DNA of 64,000 bases from Bdellovibrionales bacterium. Its GTDB lineage: Bacteria > Bdellovibrionota > Bdellovibrionia > Bdellovibrionales > UBA1609. A program made the position numbers and the translations under genes. A model generated the notes under the pieces. The model was not told the DNA's origin and did no database searches. It worked only from the letters and a program-made list of their open reading frames with translations. The stretch lies in NCBI GenBank assembly GCA_020628165.1, contig JAHDFM010000019.1, forward strand, positions 1-64,000. The letters are read 5' to 3'. Shown here in pieces: positions 6,589 through 45,306 of this stretch (within the stretch, counting starts at the first letter, position 1; each line of letters opens with the position of its first letter).

Positions 6589-6645
6589 AACGACGTGATT
6601 AAAAAAAATGCGCAACCATTTTATGCTTACACATTTAAAATAAAA

Positions 6646-6993
6646 TTACATGCAACCGTTTTTAGTGTGACGACCTTCATAGCAAATGTCATACTTTTGT
6701 GTTTGTGACTCATCAATAAAGTACTCTGAAGAATCCTGATTTAATTTTATAAAATAAATGGTCACTGATTCTGCAATAGAATCATCAAGAATGCCTTTTT
6801 CAGTCACTTTCACCTTGGCTTCGCTACGGTCTTCGACAGACACCCAAGTAAGATCAATTTCTAATGAACTCTCCATTTGATCGTGAAACTCCAACACCAA
6901 ATCGATAGGACCTTTGGTTGGTAAAAACGTTGCAAAAACTGACACTGTGAAAAAAGTTAAAACGGCAACAAACAATGACTTGATGAATGGCAT
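6646..6993 (-). CDS. Small secreted protein of unknown function
   Basis: A 115-residue product with a clear signal peptide (MPFIKSLFVAVLTFFTVSVFA), so it is exported. The mature chain is acidic, probably beta-rich, and ends with two cysteines ten residues apart (DICYEGRHTKNGCM) that could form a disulphide. A GGGGGAG run lies just upstream of the ATG at 6993. It stands alone between the TrmO-like gene and the fibre gene, convergent to the former. I recognise no family. Confidence 0.75.
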   Translation of the reverse strand: MPFIKSLFVAVLTFFTVSVFATFLPTKGPIDLVLEFHDQMESSLEIDLTWVSVEDRSEAKVKVTEKGILDDSIAESVTIYFIKLNQDSSEYFIDESQTQKYDICYEGRHTKNGCM

Positions 6994-6999
6994 ATCTCC

Positions 7000-7254
7000 C
7001 CCAATTTTTAATTATTTTTTAAAGCGCTACTCCTAATTTCAGTGATTTGTAATGATTTTTGATATTTGTAATATCTCGCAAAACCAGCTTTGAAAAAATC
7101 ACTGGCATGTATTTTTTACCCAAACTCAGCGATGGTCTCGTTACTCAATTAAGTACGGGACTTAAGTCTGCATTGTCTAAAGTTGAGATATAGTTTGACC
7201 AGTATTTATACACTTAAGTGGGCTTACTAAGGCACCGAAATATCTATTAAGTCT
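7000..7254. promoter_or_regulatory. Leader region of the fibre gene with a candidate sigma-70 promoter
   Basis: This 255-base divergent gap has no gene. The best promoter I can see is TTGAGA at 7183-7188 and TATACA at 7207-7212, with an 18-base spacer, leaving about 40 bases to the fibre ATG at 7255. No strong Shine-Dalgarno precedes that ATG. The promoter call is a consensus match by eye only. Confidence 0.35.
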
Positions 7255-10200
7255 ATGTATAAACTTTTACTTTTTATATTTTTAATAACTCCACAGTTAT
7301 TGTTGGCTGCTCTCTCGCCAACATTTATGACTTACCACGGACGCATCATTGCACCGAGCACTCTTCCTTTAGAAAACTCCAACGTCACATTCACCTTGCA
7401 AATTTTATCTCCAGGCACAGAACAATGTGTACTCTACGAAGAGACTCACACCCTCGACATGACTGGCAGCCAAGGATTGTTTAGTTTTAACATCGGTGAA
7501 GGCGCTGTGTCTGTGAATGACCCCGGTTTAGGGATCACTGGAACAGTTAGCAACAACTCTTCAAAAACAGGACTCACTTGTTCGACGGGAACGAGTTACA
7601 CACCGACGGCTGGTGACTCACGCTTGCTGCGAGTGACTTTTGATTATCCAGGCAGCACAGGCCCTGTGACCATCTCACCAGAAACAAAAATCACTTCATC
7701 ACCTTATTCAACGTATGCATCTATGCTTGAAGGCCTCGGAAAGGATGAGTTTTTACAAGTGAATTCTGGCGGTTTAAATGCACTTAACCAAGCGAACATT
7801 GAATCGGTGTTCACAACGACCAACTACCCTCTTCTAACTAGTGCTATCGACGGCACTCACACAGCTTATGCAAAAACATCTGACTTACCAGTCACCGGTG
7901 GAACATTAGACATGTCCGGAGGTGGGCAAGATATTTTAGTGACGGACACTCCGGCCAGCGGTGACTCTGTTGTAAACAAGGATTACAGCGATCTTCACCT
8001 TGGTGGCAAAATCATCGACACCACCAGTGTTGCAGGCCTCACCGACAGTGCAGGTGATGGGTTTGGTTTGATCTGGGATGAAGCCACAGAAACTTTTGTG
8101 GCTGGAACTTTGAGTTCTACCGACAACACCAAGCTTCCATTAGCTGGCGGCACCATGAGTGGCAATATCGATATGGATGAAAATGACATCATTGACATTG
8201 GCGACCTCACGGGCATTGATAACTTAGACCTCATCGGTTCAGGACAGGCCGACTTCAACGGCAGTAATTTAATTGAACTGGGCTTTGTCACTATAATGCC
8301 AGAAAGGTCTATCCATATGGGAACGTTCACCAACGCTCAAGAAATCACTTACACGGGAACATTGGGCGCTCCTGATGAAGGGAAACTTTGGTACAACTCC
8401 GACAGCAACGAACTCAAATTGTGGGATGGTGCAAGTGCTATAGCAACAGGTGTGCAAATTGGAACAACTGCTGGCACTGCGATGAGTGCTAGTTCTGTAC
8501 CTAATTGTACAGGCTCCCAAAAATTACAAATGAGTGCAGGCCCCATGTATACATGGAGTTGTGTGACTGAGTCTGGAAATATTTTAGACGGCGGAAACAC
8601 CAATGGAGCTGCCATCACCATTGGTACTAATGATAATTTTGACTTAGCTTTTGAAACAAATGGTTCAACGGCCATGACAATTCTAGATACGGGTGAGGTT
8701 GGTGTTGGAACGATCTCTCCAGCAAGTTTGTTTGAAGTAGAGAAGAATCAAAATGCAACAACAGATATCACCATAACAAACACAGACACAGGTGCAAGTT
8801 CTCGTACAGGTCTATTTATAAACAGCGGTGGTTCTGACTATGGCTACATAGGTGTCTACTCTGATACTTTCGCTAGCACATATTATCAAGATAAATTTGT
8901 TTTCTTTCCGGGCTCAACTGTAGATGGTGGAATGTTGATTAATACTCAGGGAAAAGACTTTGATCTTAATACTGGGGCGACAACTACAACAAGCCGTTTA
9001 TTTCTAGAAGGTTCTTCAGGTCATATTGGTTTGGGAACAACTTCACCGGATAATCAATTACATATATACTCTGCCACAACAAATAGAAATTTATTGGTAG
9101 AAAGTGGAACAACATCATCAGGTTTAACTTTAGAGTCCAATGGTAAAGAATGGGATTTATTTAATTCTGTTGGAATTGCCAATCAAGGCTTTGGAATTTA
9201 CGACAGAACGAACACAGTTTACAGACTAGCAATCGATGGAACTAGCGGTAACGTCGGCATAGGAATCAACTCCCCAACTAGAATTTTACACTTAAATAAT
9301 ACAAACGTGAATGGAACCATGATTAATTTTGACAATGACGATGCTGGAGGAAACTCATGGGTGGTGGGGTCAACAGGGTCTGCAAACTCACCTGGAGCTG
9401 GTCATTACGCCTTCTATAATAATAACGGCACTGCATACACCATGGTCTTAACCGAAAGTAATCGTGTGGGAATAGGAGACGAAACTCCTGAAACGCGTTT
9501 GGATGTTGAAGGAACTCTTAAAATCGCCAACGGTGGAGAAACCTGCTCCGTCGCAGCTGACGCCGGTATGTTCCGCTACAACTCAGGCAACATGGAATTT
9601 TGTAACGGCAGTGCTTGGCAAGCTCTTGGTACTGGAACTGGTGACGGTGATATTCTCGATGGAGGTAACACTGAAGGCGCTGCAATCACTATTGGTACCA
9701 ACGATAACTTTGACCTCAATTTTGAAACCAATGGTTCTAATGCAATGATTATTAAAAGTGATGGTGATGTTGGAATTGGTACCACAAGCCCATCAGGTAA
9801 AGTTCATATCAGTACTAATAATGGTGGTCCGACGCCACACACTTCGGCAGATGATCTTATTGTCGAAAACAATACTGGCCCTTCAGGAATTAGCATACTC
9901 TCTTCCGGTGCCAATGGATCTAATATCTTTTTTGGAGACACGGCTTCTAACTTACAAGGTAAACTACAATACGATAATGCGATTGATGCAATGATTTTTG
10001 AAACTAATGCTACAGAGGCTATGCGAATAGACAGTTCAGGCCGTTTAGGAATAGGAACTACTATTCCTGGAGAACTTCTACACGTTAACACTGCTGGTGC
10101 TCGTGATAATATAAAAGTAGGAAGCTGGTCTTATTTAGGTGGAGGGCCTGCTGGATACCCTTACTTTGGCTTTGCAAGTGTTTATACGGGAACGCAATGG

Positions 10201-13200
10201 GATTCTTTACATTCATCTGTTCCTGGTATGATGTTAAATTATAGTGCTTCAGGTTTAGATATATCTACACTACCTGCCAATACAACGAATGCAACAGCTA
10301 CAAGAAGAGTCACTATACTCAACACGGGCAATGTTGGAATTGGAGAAACATCACCTGACACATCTCTTGATGTCAGTGGAACCATCAAGCTTGCAAATGG
10401 TGGCGAAGCTTGCTCCGTCGCCGGCCATGCCGGAATGTTTCGCTACAATTCAGGCAATATGGAGTTTTGTAATGGCAGTGCTTGGCAAACTCTGGGAACA
10501 GGAACTGGTAGTGGCGATATTCTCGACGGTGGTAACACCGAAGCTGCTGATATCACTATTGGTACAAATGACAACTTTGATCTCAATTTTGAAACTAACG
10601 GTTCTACTCAATTGACTGTTGATACCTCTGGCAATGTTGGTATAGGAAATACTACCCCCGATCAATTATTACATATCGATAGTGGGGCGGCAGCTACGAG
10701 TCAAATTCATATGGAGTCTAATTCAGGGGGCGCGAACAGCTATTTAAAATCTTGGTTTAATGGCACGGAGTATTCATTTTCAATTGGCTCAGGAGCTTTA
10801 CCAGAGATTCTTACCTTAGGTAATGGAACTGGTCATGTTGGCATTGGAACTCCTACTCCTTCTACACCATTGCATATAGATGCAAACTCGCCAGGGTTAT
10901 TAAGACTTGAGCGAGATACAACGACAGATAGTTTTGCTGCCATTCAACTTCACAATACGTCTTCTGGAGGAAGCCATAACTCAAGTTTTGGTTCTAAAGC
11001 AGAAACAACATTATCTGACAGTTACACTTACATCTCTGGTGATGACACAAGTATACATCTTGCTGTCAGACGAGATGGTCATGTCGGTATTGGAACAACT
11101 TCACCACAGGCACAGCTACATGTACTTGATACGGGGACTGCGGGGACACCAGCAATTGATAGCACCACCGTAGGAGTGTTCCAACGTTCTGGGTCTGCAT
11201 CAAATCGATCGCGTGTTTCTGTGATTGCTGGCACTAGTGGGAGAGCGGAAATTACATTCGGTGATTCCAGTGATCCATTAGAAAGTGCGATCAGTTATTC
11301 AAATACTGCAGACAGATTGCAGCTTGAGATTGCAGGTGCTCCAAGACTTTATATCGCCAACACAGGTCGCACTGGAGTTGGCGAACCAAGTCCTGACACC
11401 CTTTTGGATGTTGCAGGTACCATTAAGGTCGCCGATGGCGGTGAAACTTGCACTATCGCAGCCGATGCTGGGATGTTTCGTTACAACACAGGAAATATGG
11501 AGTTTTGTAATGGCAGCTCGTGGCAAACTCTGAGTGTTGGTGGCGGAAGTGGTGACATTTTAAATGGCGGTAACACAGGCACAGTGACCATTGGTTCTAA
11601 TACCAACAACGAACTGCGCTTTGAAACAGATAACACCGTTAGGATGCGAATGCTCGGCACTGGTGAAATTGGTATTGGTATTACAAATCCAACTGAAGCT
11701 TTACAAATAGGAGCAACGAGTAAGTTTAAGGTTGGTGGCTTGTCCGAGGGTCTTGAAATTGACAAAGACAGTAACTTCTCAAATCTTGTTTCTTTAGCAA
11801 ATGGATTTTTATTTCAAATTGATCGTGTTGATGCAAGCTACAGTGATTTTGTATTTAATCATAACAACTCTGTCACTACAGATAATGAATTGATGAGACT
11901 CACTGGTGACGGAAATCTAGGTATAGGTGTGATTAACCCTAATTCTACTTTAGACATTTTTAGTGCTTCACCAGGAACAAGCACAGACTACGTCGCTCAA
12001 ATTGAAGCTTCCGATTATCAATTTGGAATCTCCAATGGCACAGACCTTTGGGGTTTCTCAAACTTTTCAGGAAATTTATACTTTCAACGCAATGGTGCAA
12101 ATGCACTCACTTTGGCCGGGTCGGCGGCAGCTGGTTTTGGTGATACTGGGCCTGACGCTCACGTTGAGATCAGTGCCAACGGCACCTCGGGTGGCGCTGT
12201 ACTAATGGTGAGTAGTAACGACGGTGGTGATGGTGATTTATTTATTGTCAATGAAGATGGTAACGTAGGAATTGGTATCGTTGGACCTGCAGCCCCCATT
12301 CATGTGAGTTCCACATCAGCTTCTGTTCTTGGTCAATTTGACTCCTCTCTTAATGCAGCTCTCTTAGACATAAACACAAGCAATGGCACTCCAAACCGAT
12401 CAGGAGTTCGCTTCCTCAACGCTGGCACCGTTGCAGGTCAATTTCATTATGATCACGCCGATTCAAGGCTTGAATTATTTAGTGGAGGTTCCGGGGCTGG
12501 TGATCGTAAAATGGTGATTTTAAATTCTGGGAATATCGGTATTGGTAATGACTCTCCAAACTCTACTCTTGATATTGATGGTGACTTCAATATGCTTGAA
12601 ATGTCGTCCGCACCGACAGTTTCTGCTGCAGATGAAGGACGTATTTACTTTGATGCTACTGCCAATAAGTTTAAGGTTTCTGAAAACGGTGGAGCTTTTG
12701 TTGATTTAGTTCCAACATCTGGTGCAGGGGCTGGTGATATAATTGATGGTGGTAATTCTGAAGGGGCTGCAGTTACCATTGGTACCAACGACAACTTTGA
12801 TCTCAACTTGGAAGCCAATGGCTCTACTGTCATGACTATTGAAAATGATGGAGACGTCGGTATTGGCCTCACTTCACCAGCAAAGAAATTACATGTCTTT
12901 GAAGCCGTAGGAGGCGATACCCTTTCAAGATTACAAGTAGGTGATTCTCTTGGTGTCTACCAAGGCTTCCAAAACAGTGCACAGACATGGGTTATAGGTA
13001 TTAACTCAAATGAAGATTTTATTATAAGAGATTCAACCAATGCCAGCGCTATTCCTTTTGAAATTGAAAATGGCGCCCCCGAAGGATCTCTCTTTGTAGA
13101 CAGCACTGGTAATGTTGGTGTTGGAACATCCAACCCTTCAAGCATTTTAGATATAGTGAGTGAAGGGACCACTGATGTTAATTACACTATGTACTCATCA

Positions 13201-14316
13201 GCTGCAGCTTTAACAGCTCCTGACTTTGTTTTAAAAAGAGCTCGTAACACCAAAGCTGCTCCGCAAGCCGTGCTTGATAATGACAAGTTAGGAGGAGTCC
13301 GTGGTGAAGGTTATGATGGTTCTGACTTTGGGAACTATACGGGAGTTTTCTTTTTTGCTGATGGCAATTTCTCACCAGGAGATACACCCACTCGCATTGA
13401 GTTTGATACTATGCCCGATGGCACTTCAACGGCTCAAACACGCATGACTATAAAAAATAGTGGAAACATTGGTATCGGAGAAACAAGCCCTGATGAGTTA
13501 TTACATATTAGCGCTCCTTCATCGGGAACACATTTGAAACTCGAAACACTAAATTCCGCAGGTTCTTTTATCAGATATCAAAATTCTGCCCATGAGTGGT
13601 CAGCAGGTATTAACTCCGCAGAAAACTATGTTATTCGTGACCAAACCAACTCTCAAAATGAAATTGTTGAAATTGAAAATGGTGCTCCTGCGGGAACATT
13701 TAGAATTGATAGTTCAGGTGATGTCGGAATTGGTACAACCTCCCCGGCCTCTCAACTTCATGTCGATGCCACTGGTGCGGGCGGCGGTGTTTGTGTTACA
13801 TCAGACGGAACTTGCAGTGCTGTTCCGAACGGGGGTGAAATTTCAGCTGAAACCACCCTCAACACTGGTGCCGACTATGCGGAATACTTTGAAGCTGAAG
13901 AATCTATCGAAAAAGGAGAACTCGTTGCACTTAACCCTAAAACTGGTTTAGCCAGACGATTCCAAGTTGGAGATCAACTCATTGGAGTGGTTTCTACCAA
14001 CCCAGGTGTAATTGGTAACTCAGAACTCAAAAACTCTGACAGGGCTGTACTAGTGGCTTTAGTTGGGCAAGTGCCAGTTGTTGATGCACAAATTTATGAT
14101 AAAGATGGATATGTCTATACTAAAAGTGGTGAAGGTATTGGTTACCGTTTAGCCAACAATAATGTATATCTGAATATAAGCACCGGCACTCAGTCGTTGC
14201 AAAGAAAAATTAACTCTTTGCAAACAGAACTTAAAAAATTAAATAATAAGTACTACCAAGACATCATAAGCGTTAAAGGTCGTCTTGATGTTATTGAAAA
14301 GCAACTTACAAAATAA
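7255..14316 (+). CDS. Giant modular fibre/adhesin (Bdellovibrio MAT-type, phage tail-fibre-like)
   Basis: A 2353-residue secreted fibre. It has a signal peptide (MYKLLLFIFLITPQLLLAAL), then a globular N-domain with the usual MTYHGRI opening, then a spacer with phage tail-fibre phrases (LPLAGGTMSGNIDM near residue 297). A very long shaft follows, in which a G-x-(V/I)-G-(I/V)-G-x-x-x-P-x-x-x-L-(H/D) motif recurs about 20 times between residues 480 and 2180. Interleaved are near-copies of a cysteine-containing insert (ETCSVAADAGMFRYNSGNME) and of an ILDGGNTEGAAITIGTNDNF block. The last 180 residues form a terminal domain (GADYAEYFEAEE, GELVALNPKTG, LIGVVSTNPG) resembling intramolecular chaperone/autoprotease ends of phage appendages, plus a short coiled coil. 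Fibres of this plan are described in Bdellovibrio as mosaic adhesive trimeric proteins used in prey recognition. Assignment to that superfamily is inference from architecture. Confidence 0.85.
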   Translation: MYKLLLFIFLITPQLLLAALSPTFMTYHGRIIAPSTLPLENSNVTFTLQILSPGTEQCVLYEETHTLDMTGSQGLFSFNIGEGAVSVNDPGLGITGTVSNNSSKTGLTCSTGTSYTPTAGDSRLLRVTFDYPGSTGPVTISPETKITSSPYSTYASMLEGLGKDEFLQVNSGGLNALNQANIESVFTTTNYPLLTSAIDGTHTAYAKTSDLPVTGGTLDMSGGGQDILVTDTPASGDSVVNKDYSDLHLGGKIIDTTSVAGLTDSAGDGFGLIWDEATETFVAGTLSSTDNTKLPLAGGTMSGNIDMDENDIIDIGDLTGIDNLDLIGSGQADFNGSNLIELGFVTIMPERSIHMGTFTNAQEITYTGTLGAPDEGKLWYNSDSNELKLWDGASAIATGVQIGTTAGTAMSASSVPNCTGSQKLQMSAGPMYTWSCVTESGNILDGGNTNGAAITIGTNDNFDLAFETNGSTAMTILDTGEVGVGTISPASLFEVEKNQNATTDITITNTDTGASSRTGLFINSGGSDYGYIGVYSDTFASTYYQDKFVFFPGSTVDGGMLINTQGKDFDLNTGATTTTSRLFLEGSSGHIGLGTTSPDNQLHIYSATTNRNLLVESGTTSSGLTLESNGKEWDLFNSVGIANQGFGIYDRTNTVYRLAIDGTSGNVGIGINSPTRILHLNNTNVNGTMINFDNDDAGGNSWVVGSTGSANSPGAGHYAFYNNNGTAYTMVLTESNRVGIGDETPETRLDVEGTLKIANGGETCSVAADAGMFRYNSGNMEFCNGSAWQALGTGTGDGDILDGGNTEGAAITIGTNDNFDLNFETNGSNAMIIKSDGDVGIGTTSPSGKVHISTNNGGPTPHTSADDLIVENNTGPSGISILSSGANGSNIFFGDTASNLQGKLQYDNAIDAMIFETNATEAMRIDSSGRLGIGTTIPGELLHVNTAGARDNIKVGSWSYLGGGPAGYPYFGFASVYTGTQWDSLHSSVPGMMLNYSASGLDISTLPANTTNATATRRVTILNTGNVGIGETSPDTSLDVSGTIKLANGGEACSVAGHAGMFRYNSGNMEFCNGSAWQTLGTGTGSGDILDGGNTEAADITIGTNDNFDLNFETNGSTQLTVDTSGNVGIGNTTPDQLLHIDSGAAATSQIHMESNSGGANSYLKSWFNGTEYSFSIGSGALPEILTLGNGTGHVGIGTPTPSTPLHIDANSPGLLRLERDTTTDSFAAIQLHNTSSGGSHNSSFGSKAETTLSDSYTYISGDDTSIHLAVRRDGHVGIGTTSPQAQLHVLDTGTAGTPAIDSTTVGVFQRSGSASNRSRVSVIAGTSGRAEITFGDSSDPLESAISYSNTADRLQLEIAGAPRLYIANTGRTGVGEPSPDTLLDVAGTIKVADGGETCTIAADAGMFRYNTGNMEFCNGSSWQTLSVGGGSGDILNGGNTGTVTIGSNTNNELRFETDNTVRMRMLGTGEIGIGITNPTEALQIGATSKFKVGGLSEGLEIDKDSNFSNLVSLANGFLFQIDRVDASYSDFVFNHNNSVTTDNELMRLTGDGNLGIGVINPNSTLDIFSASPGTSTDYVAQIEASDYQFGISNGTDLWGFSNFSGNLYFQRNGANALTLAGSAAAGFGDTGPDAHVEISANGTSGGAVLMVSSNDGGDGDLFIVNEDGNVGIGIVGPAAPIHVSSTSASVLGQFDSSLNAALLDINTSNGTPNRSGVRFLNAGTVAGQFHYDHADSRLELFSGGSGAGDRKMVILNSGNIGIGNDSPNSTLDIDGDFNMLEMSSAPTVSAADEGRIYFDATANKFKVSENGGAFVDLVPTSGAGAGDIIDGGNSEGAAVTIGTNDNFDLNLEANGSTVMTIENDGDVGIGLTSPAKKLHVFEAVGGDTLSRLQVGDSLGVYQGFQNSAQTWVIGINSNEDFIIRDSTNASAIPFEIENGAPEGSLFVDSTGNVGVGTSNPSSILDIVSEGTTDVNYTMYSSAAALTAPDFVLKRARNTKAAPQAVLDNDKLGGVRGEGYDGSDFGNYTGVFFFADGNFSPGDTPTRIEFDTMPDGTSTAQTRMTIKNSGNIGIGETSPDELLHISAPSSGTHLKLETLNSAGSFIRYQNSAHEWSAGINSAENYVIRDQTNSQNEIVEIENGAPAGTFRIDSSGDVGIGTTSPASQLHVDATGAGGGVCVTSDGTCSAVPNGGEISAETTLNTGADYAEYFEAEESIEKGELVALNPKTGLARRFQVGDQLIGVVSTNPGVIGNSELKNSDRAVLVALVGQVPVVDAQIYDKDGYVYTKSGEGIGYRLANNNVYLNISTGTQSLQRKINSLQTELKKLNNKYYQDIISVKGRLDVIEKQLTK
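9499..9744 (+). repeat. Fibre module copy A (insert plus GTND block)
   Basis: First clear copy of a roughly 82-residue module in the fibre gene, beginning at Leu749. It runs from LDVEGTLKIANGGETCSVAA through FCNGSAWQALGTGTG to ILDGGNTEGAAITIGTNDNF and NFETNGS. Copies B (10366) and C (11404) share this layout, and much of the similarity is visible at the nucleotide level. Two cysteines per copy could make an intra- or inter-chain disulphide. Confidence 0.8.
10366..10611 (+). repeat. Fibre module copy B
   Basis: Second copy of the module, from Leu1038 (LDVSGTIKLANGGEACSVAG) to the FDLNFETNGST segment. It matches copy A at most residues, with changes such as ETCSVAADAGM to EACSVAGHAGM and TEGAAIT to TEAADIT. 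It begins 289 residues after copy A. Confidence 0.8.
11404..11642 (+). repeat. Fibre module copy C (diverged)
   Basis: Third copy, from Leu1384 (LDVAGTIKVADGGETCTIAA). Its first half is close to copies A and B. The second half has drifted and is shorter (ILNGGNTGTVTIGSNTNNEL). It begins 346 residues after copy B, so the modules are not evenly spaced. Confidence 0.75.
12565..12835 (+). repeat. Fibre module copy D (different first half, shared GTND block)
   Basis: A hybrid copy. The first half (LDIDGDFNMLEMSSAPTVSA, then DEGRIYFDATANKFKVSENG) resembles the tail-fibre-type insert near 8370-8440 (DEGKLWYNSDSNELKLWDG), not the cysteine insert of copies A-C. The second half (IIDGGNSEGAAVTIGTNDNF) is the shared block. 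The swap looks like module shuffling. Confidence 0.7.
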
Positions 14317-14355
14317 ATCTGATTTTGTGAACACAGATTTTAACTCTACTCTTTT

Positions 14356-14457
14356 CTGCAAAAGGATTTGATTAACTGATTTTTTTTAGGTTATCGTTTT
14401 TGTGCAAATCTTTTTGCAGAACTGATTCCTCATTCCAATTAAGCAATGAAGAATCAG
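14356..14457. terminator. Two hairpins between convergent genes (possible terminators)
   Basis: Two inverted repeats lie between the fibre stop and the 3' end of the opposing gene. The first pairs CTGCAAAAGGATTTG (14356-14370) with CAAATCTTTTTGCAG (14405-14419), with one mismatched pair and a 34-base loop. The second pairs CTGATTCCTCATT (14422) with AATGAAGAATCAG (ending 14457), also with one mismatch. Neither has a classic T-run on either strand, so a bidirectional terminator role is inference from position. Confidence 0.4.
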
Positions 14458-14468
14458 CTTAGTTTGAT

Positions 14469-15173
14469 TTACTTCACTCTTTTTAAAACGTACAGGTAAC
14501 CTTGCACCCCGTTTTCATCGTCACTTTGTCCGATGGTAATTCTTAAATCAGCATCTGTATACACCTCTGACAAAATACCACCTTTGAAAAAGCGCTTCAC
14601 AAGTTCACTAGATAAATCTGTTTTTTCGCCTGCTAGCTCGTTGCTCTCTGACAAAGCTGGAAGGTCGACATGCCTTAAGTTTTCAGGAAGTTTTTTTATG
14701 CTAGTTAATTTATTAAATTGAACTTTTAAATCATCGCCGCCGTTAACGTTAAACTCACCACGAAGTAAAGTGACCTTTCTAATGTCTTTACTGAAGCGAT
14801 TTAAATTATTGGTGACGTTATAATAGTAGCCATCTGGAAATACTACTTGATAAATATTATTCACGTCTGTTGTTGGATCAACACTGCGATCATTTTTTCT
14901 GTACTCGTAAGGCCCCCAAACCTGTTGCCAAGCTCCAGCAAGAAGATCTAATCTATTTTTAATTGGCTCTTGTGGTGCAAGTTCTAACAAACGCTCAACA
15001 TAAGGCATGAGTTCATTTTGAATTTTGAAATCGGGATCGCCCTGCCCGATGTATTGACTTGCCACTTTAACAAGTTCTGTTTTAACGCTTTCAACTGTTT
15101 TTAATTTTTCTGGAGCCATGCCTGCAAACGCACTAAAGCTCATCGTTAATAGAACAACGATTAATGATTTCAT
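14469..15173 (-). CDS. Secreted protein with a PAP/fibrillin-like domain
   Basis: A 234-residue exported protein. I place the start at the ATG at 15173, not the longer in-frame option at 15233, because AGGGGGG lies just upstream and the ATG opens a signal peptide (MKSLIVVLLTMSFSAFA). The mature part resembles the plastid-lipid-associated protein/fibrillin domain: a helical segment, then LLAGAWQQVWGPYEYR, then a beta-rich middle, and a C-terminal signature YTDADLRITIGQ...GYLYVLKRV matching the family's DLRI...G..FVL ending. Fibrillins bind lipophilic molecules in plastids and cyanobacteria; a bacterial periplasmic or outer-membrane version may bind lipids, but that is inference. Single-gene unit, convergent with the fibre gene. 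Confidence 0.65.
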   Translation of the reverse strand: MKSLIVVLLTMSFSAFAGMAPEKLKTVESVKTELVKVASQYIGQGDPDFKIQNELMPYVERLLELAPQEPIKNRLDLLAGAWQQVWGPYEYRKNDRSVDPTTDVNNIYQVVFPDGYYYNVTNNLNRFSKDIRKVTLLRGEFNVNGGDDLKVQFNKLTSIKKLPENLRHVDLPALSESNELAGEKTDLSSELVKRFFKGGILSEVYTDADLRITIGQSDDENGVQGYLYVLKRVK

Positions 15174-15299
15174 ATTTACCCCCCTATGAAATGTTACTAA
15201 TTGCAACATACTTGAGCAGAACAGATTGTTCAATATATTTTGAACAATCTAGTCCGTGCCAGGTAAATACTTGTAATTGCTTAATATTACAAAATGATG

Positions 15300-16223
15300 T
15301 TAAGCGTGAGCTTGATCATCGAGCCACCTTTCAGCGTCGATGGCAGCCATACAGCCTGTTCCCGCAGCAGTGACTGCTTGCCTGTAAACATGGTCTTGAG
15401 CATCTCCACAAGCAAAAACACCTTCAACGTTGGTGTAGGTGCAATCTGGCTTTGTATTAATGTAACCGACATCGTTAGTTTCAATAAAGTCTGTGAAAAT
15501 ATCAGTGTTCGGTTTGTGACCAATGGCTATGAAAACACCCTCTAAATTCATTTCAATGGTTTCATTGGTTTTATTATTAAAGACCTTTACACCCGTGACG
15601 GCTTTATCACCCAACACATCTTTAAGTTCTGTGTTCCAATGAATTTGAATTTTTTCGTGATTCATCACACGGTCCGCCATCACCTTGGAAGCTCTAAACG
15701 ATTCACGGCGGTGAAACACATGCACTTTACTGGCAAAGCGAGTTAAGAACAAAGCTTCTTCCATGGCCGTGTCACCACCACCGACGATGCAAACTTCTAC
15801 GTCTCTAAAAAAAGCACCATCACAAGTGGCACAAGCAGAAACCCCGCGCCCTAGTAAGCGTCTTTCATTTTCTAAGCCTAGGTACTTCGCCGAAGCTCCA
15901 GTAGAAATAATGATAGATTTTGACTGATACTCTTTGTCTTTCACCCAAACTTTAAAAGGGCGTGATGAGAAATCAACTTTTGTGACGTTATTAGAAATAA
16001 AACGTGTGCCAAAGCGTTCGGCTTGCTTTCGTGTGATCGTCATTAAGTCAGGCCCCATAACACCCTCAGGAAAACCTGGGAAGTTCTCAACATCAGTGGT
16101 GGTCATGAGCTGTCCACCTACCTCTTCACCTTCAATCATTAATGGATTTAAATTTGCTCTTGCTGCGTAAATAGCAGCAGTTAAACCGGCAGGCCCAGAA
16201 CCAATGATGATCACATTTTCCAT
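15300..16223 (-). CDS. trxB: Thioredoxin reductase
   Basis: FAD- and NADPH-dependent flavoenzyme that reduces thioredoxin, 307 residues, the usual bacterial length. It shows the FAD-binding motif GSGPAGLTAAIYAARA near residue 8, the redox-active CATC at C131 and C134 followed by DGAFF, the NADPH-binding GGGDTAMEEA, and the C-terminal FAD motif GVFACGDAQD. An AGAGGA site precedes the ATG at 16223. The next gene upstream on the same strand is an SDR 63 bases away. Confidence 0.97.
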   Translation of the reverse strand: MENVIIIGSGPAGLTAAIYAARANLNPLMIEGEEVGGQLMTTTDVENFPGFPEGVMGPDLMTITRKQAERFGTRFISNNVTKVDFSSRPFKVWVKDKEYQSKSIIISTGASAKYLGLENERRLLGRGVSACATCDGAFFRDVEVCIVGGGDTAMEEALFLTRFASKVHVFHRRESFRASKVMADRVMNHEKIQIHWNTELKDVLGDKAVTGVKVFNNKTNETIEMNLEGVFIAIGHKPNTDIFTDFIETNDVGYINTKPDCTYTNVEGVFACGDAQDHVYRQAVTAAGTGCMAAIDAERWLDDQAHA

Positions 16224-42591: not shown

Positions 42592-43965
42592 TTATCGGCT
42601 TAAGAAAGTTTCATCTAGTAGACCGTTTTCTAAAAACTCTAGTAGGTCGTCTTTTTGTTCTTGTGTGAGGTTGAGGCCCTCTTTGTATATGTTTAATGGG
42701 ACGCGGCTCAGCTTGTCTTCCATCCTGGCTGCGTTTTTATCTGTAATCAATTCTAGTTCGTAATGTTTCCTAAAACTTTGTGGAATTTCGTAATTTAAAT
42801 TTCCTTCGCGAATATTGTTTTTAAATTCGATAACATCCCTCAATGTCTCGAAAGCACCATTATGCATGTAGGGAGCTGACAGCTTTACGTTGCGTAAGCC
42901 TGGAACTTTGAACTTGTACTTATCGCTATCGTTATTTGTCACTTGCTCTCTACCCGTGTCGTTTATAAATGGTTTGAAACCTAAAAATGGCGTTGCGATA
43001 TTTTCAAAGCTCTCTCTGGTGAACATTGTTCCCGTATGGCAGAATTGACATTGTCCGACGCCGTAAAAAACCTTCATGCCTTGTTTTTGTTGTTCGTTCA
43101 TTGCCGTTAAATCACCATTTAAATAACGATCAAATGGAGTGTCGTTGGCTAAGAACTGAGTTTTGAAAAAAGCTTTTATAGCTCTTGCAATATGACCTGG
43201 GTGAATTTCATCAAGAGGTGTGTTCGGAAAAGCATTTCTAAAAAACAACTGGTAATTACTTTGCGATAGAACTCGTTCGTTTAATACTTTGTCCCAAATA
43301 GCAGCATGGTTTTCTTTGCCCAGATTTGCAATCTCATTGTCAAAACCTAAGAACTCTACCGGTGTTATGATTGGAAACAATGGCTGTATTCCAGGACCAG
43401 TCTCCATCAGTTCTGGAATGTCTGGACGAAATGGTGAGGTGCCCGAAATTTCTGGAGCCGGTGTTTGCACCACACCAGGCGACACTAATTCAATGCGACC
43501 ATCCCACAGAGCAAACTTTTGCCCCTTTAAACCTTTGTTGAATAATGCAGGAGCATGTCTAGGCATAGGCTCACTTTTACCATTGATTTGTTTTCTATTG
43601 GGAAACTCACCCTCTCCGCCAGTTCCAATAGGAAGAGGTAAGCCGTCACCTGTTCCGGCCTCATTGAAGTGGCAAGTTGCACACGACGTGTCTTTGTCAC
43701 CGCTCAGTAAAGTTTCATTAAAAAGTGCTTCACCTAAAATAATAAGAGCTTCATCTTCTTCTTCAACATTAGGAAATGGCGTTAACTTGTTTTGACTGAT
43801 AATAACTTGCAACTCACTGTCTATAGGTGAAATCTGTAATAACTGACTTGAGTTTCCAGCTGTATCTAATAAGTCAAATTGTCCGCAGTTAGTAAAGTTA
43901 AACGCAACAAACAGCAAACCAAAGATGATACCAACTAATGCAATGTATCTCACCATCATACTCAT
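42592..43965 (-). CDS. Di-haem cytochrome c peroxidase-like (MauG/CCP family) lipoprotein, copy 2
   Basis: A 457-residue exported protein. The N-terminus is a lipoprotein-like signal (YIALVGIIFGLLFVAFNFTNC), then a peroxidase body with two c-type haem sites: CATCH in SCATCHFNEAGTG near residue 95 and CQFCH in GQCQFCHTGTMF near residue 310. LRNVKLSAPYMHNGAFETL is the conserved CCP/MauG segment between the second haem and the C-terminus. It would reduce hydrogen peroxide or oxidise a partner in the periplasm. It starts 6 bases after its paralogue's stop, so the two are cotranscribed. Confidence 0.88.
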   Translation of the reverse strand: MSMMVRYIALVGIIFGLLFVAFNFTNCGQFDLLDTAGNSSQLLQISPIDSELQVIISQNKLTPFPNVEEEDEALIILGEALFNETLLSGDKDTSCATCHFNEAGTGDGLPLPIGTGGEGEFPNRKQINGKSEPMPRHAPALFNKGLKGQKFALWDGRIELVSPGVVQTPAPEISGTSPFRPDIPELMETGPGIQPLFPIITPVEFLGFDNEIANLGKENHAAIWDKVLNERVLSQSNYQLFFRNAFPNTPLDEIHPGHIARAIKAFFKTQFLANDTPFDRYLNGDLTAMNEQQKQGMKVFYGVGQCQFCHTGTMFTRESFENIATPFLGFKPFINDTGREQVTNNDSDKYKFKVPGLRNVKLSAPYMHNGAFETLRDVIEFKNNIREGNLNYEIPQSFRKHYELELITDKNAARMEDKLSRVPLNIYKEGLNLTQEQKDDLLEFLENGLLDETFLSR

Positions 43966-43971
43966 ACTTAC

Positions 43972-45306
43972 CTATCTATTTTTAAAGGTTTCATCCAACA
44001 ATCCATTTTCTAAGAAGTCGACTAAATTTTGTTGTTCCTCTGGTCTTAAATTAATTCCTGCTTTTAATCGTGGATCACTCACTTGATCGATACGTTCTTG
44101 GTTGCGAGCACTGTCGTTGTCAAAAATTAAAGTCAACTCATAGTGTTGCTGAAAACTTGGTGGAATAGTGTAATTGTTAATGCTACTTTCTACGTTACTG
44201 TAATGTGAGATAACACTCTCTAAAGTATCAAAAGCACCATTGTGCATATAAGGAGCCGACAACTTTACATTTCTTAAACCTGGAGTTTTAAAGTGGTATC
44301 TATCAGCAGGGTTGCCCGTGTCATCTTCACGACCGCGATCATCTTGAAAAGGCGCAAACGTTAACTGCGGAACAGCAATGCCCTCAAAGTCATTATTAGT
44401 GAAAGTATTGCCTGTGTGACAAACGTTGCAAGCGCCGTTGGTATAGAAAGTTCGCATTCCCAATTTTTGATTTTCTGTAAGTGCGTGGATATCACCGGCG
44501 ATGTACTTATCAAAAGGTGAATTGTTAGCTACAAATGTTGTCCTAGTGTAGGCACGGATCGCCCTGGAAATATGACCAGGATTTAAGTTATTAGTAGCAA
44601 CATTTGGATAAGCTTGACTAAACAAGGTCACATATTTGGTCTGAGTTAATAACCTTTGAAAAAGAACTGTGTCCCATATCACTGATGGGTTGCCAAGATT
44701 AGCTAAAGGATTGTTAACCCCTAAGAATTCAGTTCGGTTAATTATTGGAAACAGTGGCTGAATATCAAAAGCGTTCTCAAACATGCTGGTAATGTCAGAC
44801 CGTTGCGGATTGGGGCCGGAAAGAATCGCTAGAGGTGTACTTGGGACACCATTAATTAAATTCAAACGTCCGTCCCACAAAGCGTGAGTCCTTCCATCTC
44901 GGCCCGTATTGAACAAAGCCATCGAGTGGCGACGCATTGGTAAAACCCCGGCGACCTGTCTTCGATTAGGAAAGGTGCCCGTTGTTCCAGAACCCAACGA
45001 CAATGGCAAACCATCACCACTTCCAAGGTTAGGACTGTGACAAGAGGCGCAAGATACATCATTCAATCCACTCATACTTGTATCAAAAAATAATTCCTTT
45101 CCCAGCGCAACAAGTTGTGGACTTTCTGCAGAGGGAGACTCCAAGGGAACAAGATCATTTGCCGCGATAATTAAATCTAATTGCTTGTCCAAGTCCGACT
45201 TAACACTTGTGACAAAACGACGACTGCTTCGGCCACAGTTTGTAAATGTAAAAGCAAGTAAGCTGATGCCAGTTATTAATACAATGAATGGAAATAACTT
45301 TTTCAT
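43972..45306 (-). CDS. Di-haem cytochrome c peroxidase-like (MauG/CCP family) lipoprotein, copy 1
   Basis: A 444-residue paralogue of the next gene, with the same plan: lipoprotein-type signal (KLFPFIVLITGISLLAFTF, TNC), haem sites CASCH (SCASCHSPNLGSGDG) and CNVCH (ACNVCHTGNTFTNNDF), and the block LRNVKLSAPYMHNGAFDTL. The two share long stretches, so a tandem duplication is clear. An AGGGGAC site precedes the ATG at 45306. First gene of a two-gene operon. Confidence 0.9.
   Translation of the reverse strand: MKKLFPFIVLITGISLLAFTFTNCGRSSRRFVTSVKSDLDKQLDLIIAANDLVPLESPSAESPQLVALGKELFFDTSMSGLNDVSCASCHSPNLGSGDGLPLSLGSGTTGTFPNRRQVAGVLPMRRHSMALFNTGRDGRTHALWDGRLNLINGVPSTPLAILSGPNPQRSDITSMFENAFDIQPLFPIINRTEFLGVNNPLANLGNPSVIWDTVLFQRLLTQTKYVTLFSQAYPNVATNNLNPGHISRAIRAYTRTTFVANNSPFDKYIAGDIHALTENQKLGMRTFYTNGACNVCHTGNTFTNNDFEGIAVPQLTFAPFQDDRGREDDTGNPADRYHFKTPGLRNVKLSAPYMHNGAFDTLESVISHYSNVESSINNYTIPPSFQQHYELTLIFDNDSARNQERIDQVSDPRLKAGINLRPEEQQNLVDFLENGLLDETFKNR

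Follow-up and report, generated by a model that had tools for sequence, protein, structure and literature searches.

A giant mosaic adhesive trimer fibre from a Bdellovibrionia bacterium with a predicted phi29-type Peptidase_G2 cap

The window analysed here (64,000 nucleotides, positions 1 to 64,000 of contig JAHDFM010000019.1, assembly GCA_020628165.1, Bdellovibrionales bacterium) contains one uninterrupted open reading frame of 2353 aa at 7255-14316 on the forward strand. Its sequence identifies the product as a mosaic adhesive trimer (MAT) fibre of a Bdellovibrionia bacterium, and a structural model assigns its last 147 residues to the phi29 gp12 type of intramolecular chaperone cap. We consider it probable (roughly 0.7) that the protein is a MAT surface fibre into which a Peptidase_G2 (G2) cap has been swapped, that this cap is probably released, and that the end adheres most likely to prey glycans. 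The earlier note had given the coordinates and the description of the reading frame correctly. The features referred to below are as follows.

7255..14316, + strand: giant MAT fibre gene, 2353 aa (open reading frame and MAT N-terminal model)
7255..7308, + strand: probable signal peptide, aa 1-18 (sequence by eye)
7255..8574, + strand: base region common to the genome's own paralogs, aa 1-440 (64-78% identity as far as about aa 400 and 53% beyond)
7297..7764, + strand: MAT N-terminal beta-rich domain, aa 15-170, presumed cell-surface base (NF053851 and AF2)
8380..8688, + strand: connector module 1, aa 376-478 (module alignment)
8692..13746, + strand: beta-helix shaft with 17 capping-loop repeats GxVGIGxxxP, aa 480-2164 (motif count; PDB 8ond, 8ol4, 8ojn, 8oml)
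9466..9762, + strand: connector module 2, aa 738-836 (module alignment)
10333..10629, + strand: connector module 3, aa 1027-1125 (module alignment)
11368..11661, + strand: connector module 4, aa 1372-1469 (module alignment)
12535..12849, + strand: connector module 5, degenerate, aa 1761-1865 (module alignment)
13750..14316, + strand: exchanged terminal module, aa 2166-2353 (absent from own paralogs; 53-60% identical to f5 tips)
13792..13815, + strand: conserved Cys pair C2180/C2187 just before the cap (invariant alignment columns)
13846..14067, + strand: Peptidase_G2 (PF11962) core (35.7 bits, cutoff 25)
13870..13875, + strand: predicted self-cleavage point between A2206 and D2207, followed by invariant DYAEYF with E2210 (alignment to phi29 gp12)
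14179..14313, + strand: C-terminal helix, probable coiled coil, aa 2309-2353 (AF2 model)

Base, shaft and relation to described MAT fibres

The hydrophobic N-terminus ends in LLLA, and the first 18 residues resemble, by eye, a Sec signal peptide. Residues 15-170 match the NCBIfam model NF053851 (Bdello_MAT_N) with 125.6 bits (cutoff 60), as do all three sister fibres scanned with it. In a single-chain AlphaFold2 (AF2) model this N-terminal domain is confidently beta-rich, with pLDDT >90 across most of its length, in line with the conserved beta-rich stretch of ~130 aa that MATs carry behind their signal peptide. No PDB entry stands out as a match to the model, the best Z of 6.6 belonging to generic Ig-like sandwiches; this agrees with the statement in the main text of PMC10769870 that the MAT N-terminal domain is without a known structural relative.

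The protein carries 17 copies of the motif GxVGIGxxxP (V/I/L allowed), compared with at most 1 (mean 0.005) in 200 shuffles. The shorter motif VGIGxxxP occurs 18 times in the 2353-aa protein and is accompanied by degenerate copies, so that the "about 20" shaft repeats counted earlier are a fair figure. The motif fits the capping loop reported in the main text of PMC10769870. By sequence alone, residues 464-681 match 8ond (Bd2133) with an E of 1e-8 and residues 1965-2087 match 8ol4 with an E of 1.2e-8, while weaker stretches match two further crystallised MAT structures, 8ojn and 8oml. Homology to these solved MAT beta-helices supports a trimeric shaft. Together with the NF053851 match at the base, the same hits bear out the earlier proposal of a MAT-type fibre. 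A connector module of about 95 aa starts at aa 376, 738, 1027, 1372 and 1761, and modules 2 and 3 share 76% DNA identity in a direct alignment. The "swapped inserts" of the earlier note are thus recognisable as a connector recurring four to five times and as a patchwork of identity between the shaft and different paralogs in a windowed comparison.

Like the MATs of Bdellovibrio bacteriovorus HD100 (Bd3182, Bd2133, Bd2439) presented in the main text of PMC10769870, the fibre has a beta-rich base, a capping-loop beta-helix shaft, a variable end and several paralogs in the genome. It differs from them in its end, which is Peptidase_G2 rather than S74, TNF-like, C-type lectin or beta-sandwiches, and in its size, about twice the ~1,000 aa that the same text gives as typical. 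The description "unusually long" is therefore true against the described MATs but not within the genome itself, where paralogs of 2012, 2324, 2733 and up to 3201 aa were found, and one more is broken. This broken sister MAT (L067:5276-10680) contains a stretch of N that probably marks a gap in the scaffold, and the MAT count and lengths for this genome are hence lower bounds. With the ~550 A reported for Bd3182 (922 aa) taken as the scale, the fibre could be roughly 130-160 nm long.

MATs of B. bacteriovorus are surface-displayed prey adhesins. They are described as the first proteins found to recognise prey surfaces in a predatory bacterium, and are divided into S74 and non-S74 kinds (PMC10769870, main text). 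Carried over from that species, prey recognition by the present fibre is a reasonable expectation. Single MAT deletions in HD100 gave a weak phenotype or none, which makes the role of any one fibre uncertain. We also considered that the bacterium might be non-predatory, or attached to surfaces facultatively, and the fibre a general surface adhesin that would bind particles, algae or kin instead of recognising prey. This is rather unlikely. It would suit the wide occurrence of the base in the order (32 of 59 sampled genomes of the same order of Bdellovibrionia) and the fact that, as far as found, predation tests concern only B. bacteriovorus MATs; however, among characterised fibres the nearest relatives are directed at prey, and this genome holds six or more MATs whose shafts vary, as those of a recognition repertoire would. 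Prey recognition is the role preferred here.

The terminal cap

Peptidase_G2 turned out to be the sole Pfam domain above cutoff in the 2353-aa protein (32.1-35.7 bits vs. 25), and the Pfam scan found no C-terminal Peptidase_S74 with SDxxxK. In the whole genome, a profile search places Peptidase_G2 once, in this reading frame only, whereas Peptidase_S74 occurs five times, forming the ends of all five sister fibres, none of which has a G2 domain. An S74-type end of the present frame, considered as a candidate, was rejected on these grounds. The earlier note had left the type of the terminal domain unspecified (MAT tip or chaperone) and suggested a profile search of the C-terminus against known tips and chaperones; with Peptidase_G2 above cutoff and no S74, the chaperone option stands, and the type differs from the S74 of the sisters.

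In the AF2 model of residues 2129-2353, confidence is low ahead of D2207 and very high from that residue onwards. With pLDDT >90 nearly throughout D2207-K2353 and a final helix of about 45 residues, the model agrees with the separate terminal domain with coiled coil that had been noticed at first reading; the C-termini of the sister fibres are likewise coiled-coil-like in sequence. The modelled cap matches phi29 gp12 with Z 12.4 for 3suc (rmsd 2.3, 103 aligned residues, 29% identity) and Z 11.8 for 3gqh. Residue 79 of the cap model, equal to D2207, aligns with gp12 residue 692, the first after the gp12 cleavage point, and 691 is the last residue of the mature gp12* tassel (PMC6542822). In the sequence alignment, A2206 and D2207 pair with gp12 S691 and D692, and E2210 pairs with gp12 E695. 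The DYAEYF motif, including D2207 and E2210, is invariant in 32 aligned bacterial and viral caps. At the position equivalent to E2210, the deposited "pre-mature" gp12 has Q and the other gp12 chain E, a difference suggesting that this glutamate is the one needed for cutting. Judged by the alignment, self-cleavage of the cap between A2206 and D2207 is likely. A disulphide between C2180 and C2187 is possible.

In comparison with the phi29 gp12 pre-neck appendage (3GQH, 3SUC), the cap shares the fold (Z about 12), the D-[YF]-A-E-[YF]-F motif with which the domain opens, and the location at the extreme end of a trimeric beta-helical spike, the trimer being assigned here by homology. However, its compact part spans ~100 residues and leads into a long helix, the cap sits on a bacterial surface fibre and not on a virion, and the residue before the predicted cut is Ala instead of Ser. 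Most viral relatives found also have Ala at this position, in a sample biased by being drawn partly with the pattern ADYAEYFE. At least 170 IMG/VR stretches with G2-cap relatives (viral contigs L087-L166) were collected with a search pattern that favoured the DYAEYF motif, and nearly all of those examined have Ala before DYAEYF; the longest viral G2-cap open frame noted has 2643 aa (L147).

The Ala in place of the Ser that precedes the phi29 cut is one reason to consider that the G2 cap folds and trimerises the end and then stays uncut as a terminal domain, in the manner of non-S74 MAT tips, which according to the main text of PMC10769870 retain independent C-terminal domains. The deposited chain of the related tailspike Dpo31, which has the same ADYAEYFE motif, includes the domain, its entry not telling whether it is cut or not. 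We regard a permanently retained cap as unlikely, because neither D2207 nor E2210 varies among the bacterial and viral caps and because the confidently modelled part begins directly behind the position of the phi29 cut, as expected of a released domain. Release of the cap is the reading followed below.

Module exchange and genomic setting

Windowed comparison and the trees of bases and caps reveal a constant base and a diversified end, the arrangement that makes a MAT "mosaic". Approximately the first 400 residues are 64-78% identical to the genome's own paralogs vs. 34-46% to f5, a different family within the order. Beyond about aa 2176 the own paralogs have no match at all, whereas f5 caps reach up to 75% per window. 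The base tree unites the protein with four sister fibres from its genome and with a congener (98/96), and the hypothesis that all G2-tipped bases form one clade is rejected with p 8e-65. In the cap tree the bacterial G2 caps form one clade separate from the sampled viral caps (100/100). The conflict between the two trees indicates different histories of base and cap and hence an exchange of modules. The terminal module appears, from these comparisons, to have been exchanged as a unit against the S74 chaperone of the sisters.

Close cap relatives among 141 genomes of the order are confined to this genome and four f5 genomes, with a weak match in one further genome (G101); a survey of 369 genomes in the phylum added just three carriers of the G2 domain, all of family f12. 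The G2-tipped fibres of f5 (G039, G046, G051, G058) have caps 53-60% identical to the present one over the whole module and are also long (up to 2693 aa), and G058, the one whose base was scanned, matches the MAT model. Their bases, by contrast, are only about 40% identical to this one and lie elsewhere in the base tree. The cap may have come from f5, or it may be an old module kept here and lost elsewhere, the base having been homogenised with those of the sisters. This cap may or may not nest with those of f5 only, f12 excluded (p 0.43; FastTree 0.84). The GC content of the gene is 43% vs. 38% in its flanks, which is no sign of recent import, since the sister MATs are likewise higher.

Further G2-capped fibres were seen alongside. 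Two giant ones, 2693 and 2456 aa long, are tandem neighbours on a single contig of G058 (L071:3637-19288). The G2-capped fibres of f5 (L069, L072, L073) seem, by eye, to have common neighbours, namely a PP2C/SpoIIE-type phosphatase-like membrane protein and a protein with a beta-barrel-like end, both absent at the copy studied here. In f12, an open frame of 1814 aa (L084:6013-11454, G202) ends in the same G2 cap, as does one of 1833 aa (L085:4071-9569, G143); the base of the latter is not recognised by the MAT model, so the G2 cap may also sit on a different base.

The fibre gene lies among housekeeping genes. Upstream are genes for an oligopeptide-type ABC transporter ATPase, metG, a SpoU-type methylase and trmO; downstream are a PAP_fibrillin-like gene, trxB and an SDR gene, and leuS is also among the neighbours. 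The congener G002 (L187) keeps the flanks of the trmO-trxB interval (window 6589-15300) and has unrelated genes and no MAT inside, so that the fibre occupies a variable slot. Defence-system models gave no match. Elsewhere in the window, two adjoining genes of the di-haem cytochrome c peroxidase/MauG family were observed at 42592-45306.

That the gene encodes a phage or prophage tail fibre is extremely improbable: PHROG tail-fibre families do match the shaft and G2 caps are common in viral contigs, but the protein has a probable signal peptide and a MAT base, no phage genes were found among its neighbours (metG, trmO, trxB, leuS), 50,697 phage records contain no match to base or cap, and the bacterial caps are a clade apart from the sampled viral ones. 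Given the last point, there is also no support for a transfer of the cap straight from one of the sampled phages. A deeper viral ancestry of the cap is possible.

Proposed function and significance

In the proposed mechanism, the signal peptide would export the fibre out of the cytoplasm and the beta-rich N-terminal domain would anchor its base at the cell surface. The middle would form a very long trimeric beta-helix shaft with capping loops and connector modules, whose end the G2 cap would bring to trimerise. The cap would then probably cut itself off between A2206 and D2207 and expose the shaft end, and this end together with the shaft surface may adhere, most likely to prey glycans.

In phi29, ATP is reported to promote maturation of the cap. 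It is conceivable that S74 and phi29-type G2, which are unrelated self-cleaving trimerisation caps, are interchangeable on one fibre scaffold and that the swap changes the timing of uncapping; by analogy with phi29, the G2 fibre might keep its cap outside the cell for as long as no nucleotide leaking from a breached prey cell reaches it; we offer this as a speculation and consider it very unlikely to be right as a whole.

While the MAT family and the G2 chaperone are each already known, the main text of PMC10769870 makes no mention of Peptidase G2 or phi29, nor thus of the two being combined, and no other paper on the combination was found. The fibre adds a further MAT arrangement, in which an autoproteolytic-type cap from a different peptidase family is placed on the same base. 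It also provides natural evidence that fibre ends are swapped as whole modules carrying their own folding helper. With five S74 ends and one G2 end in a single genome, this bacterium offers a clean genetic contrast for the role of the cap type.
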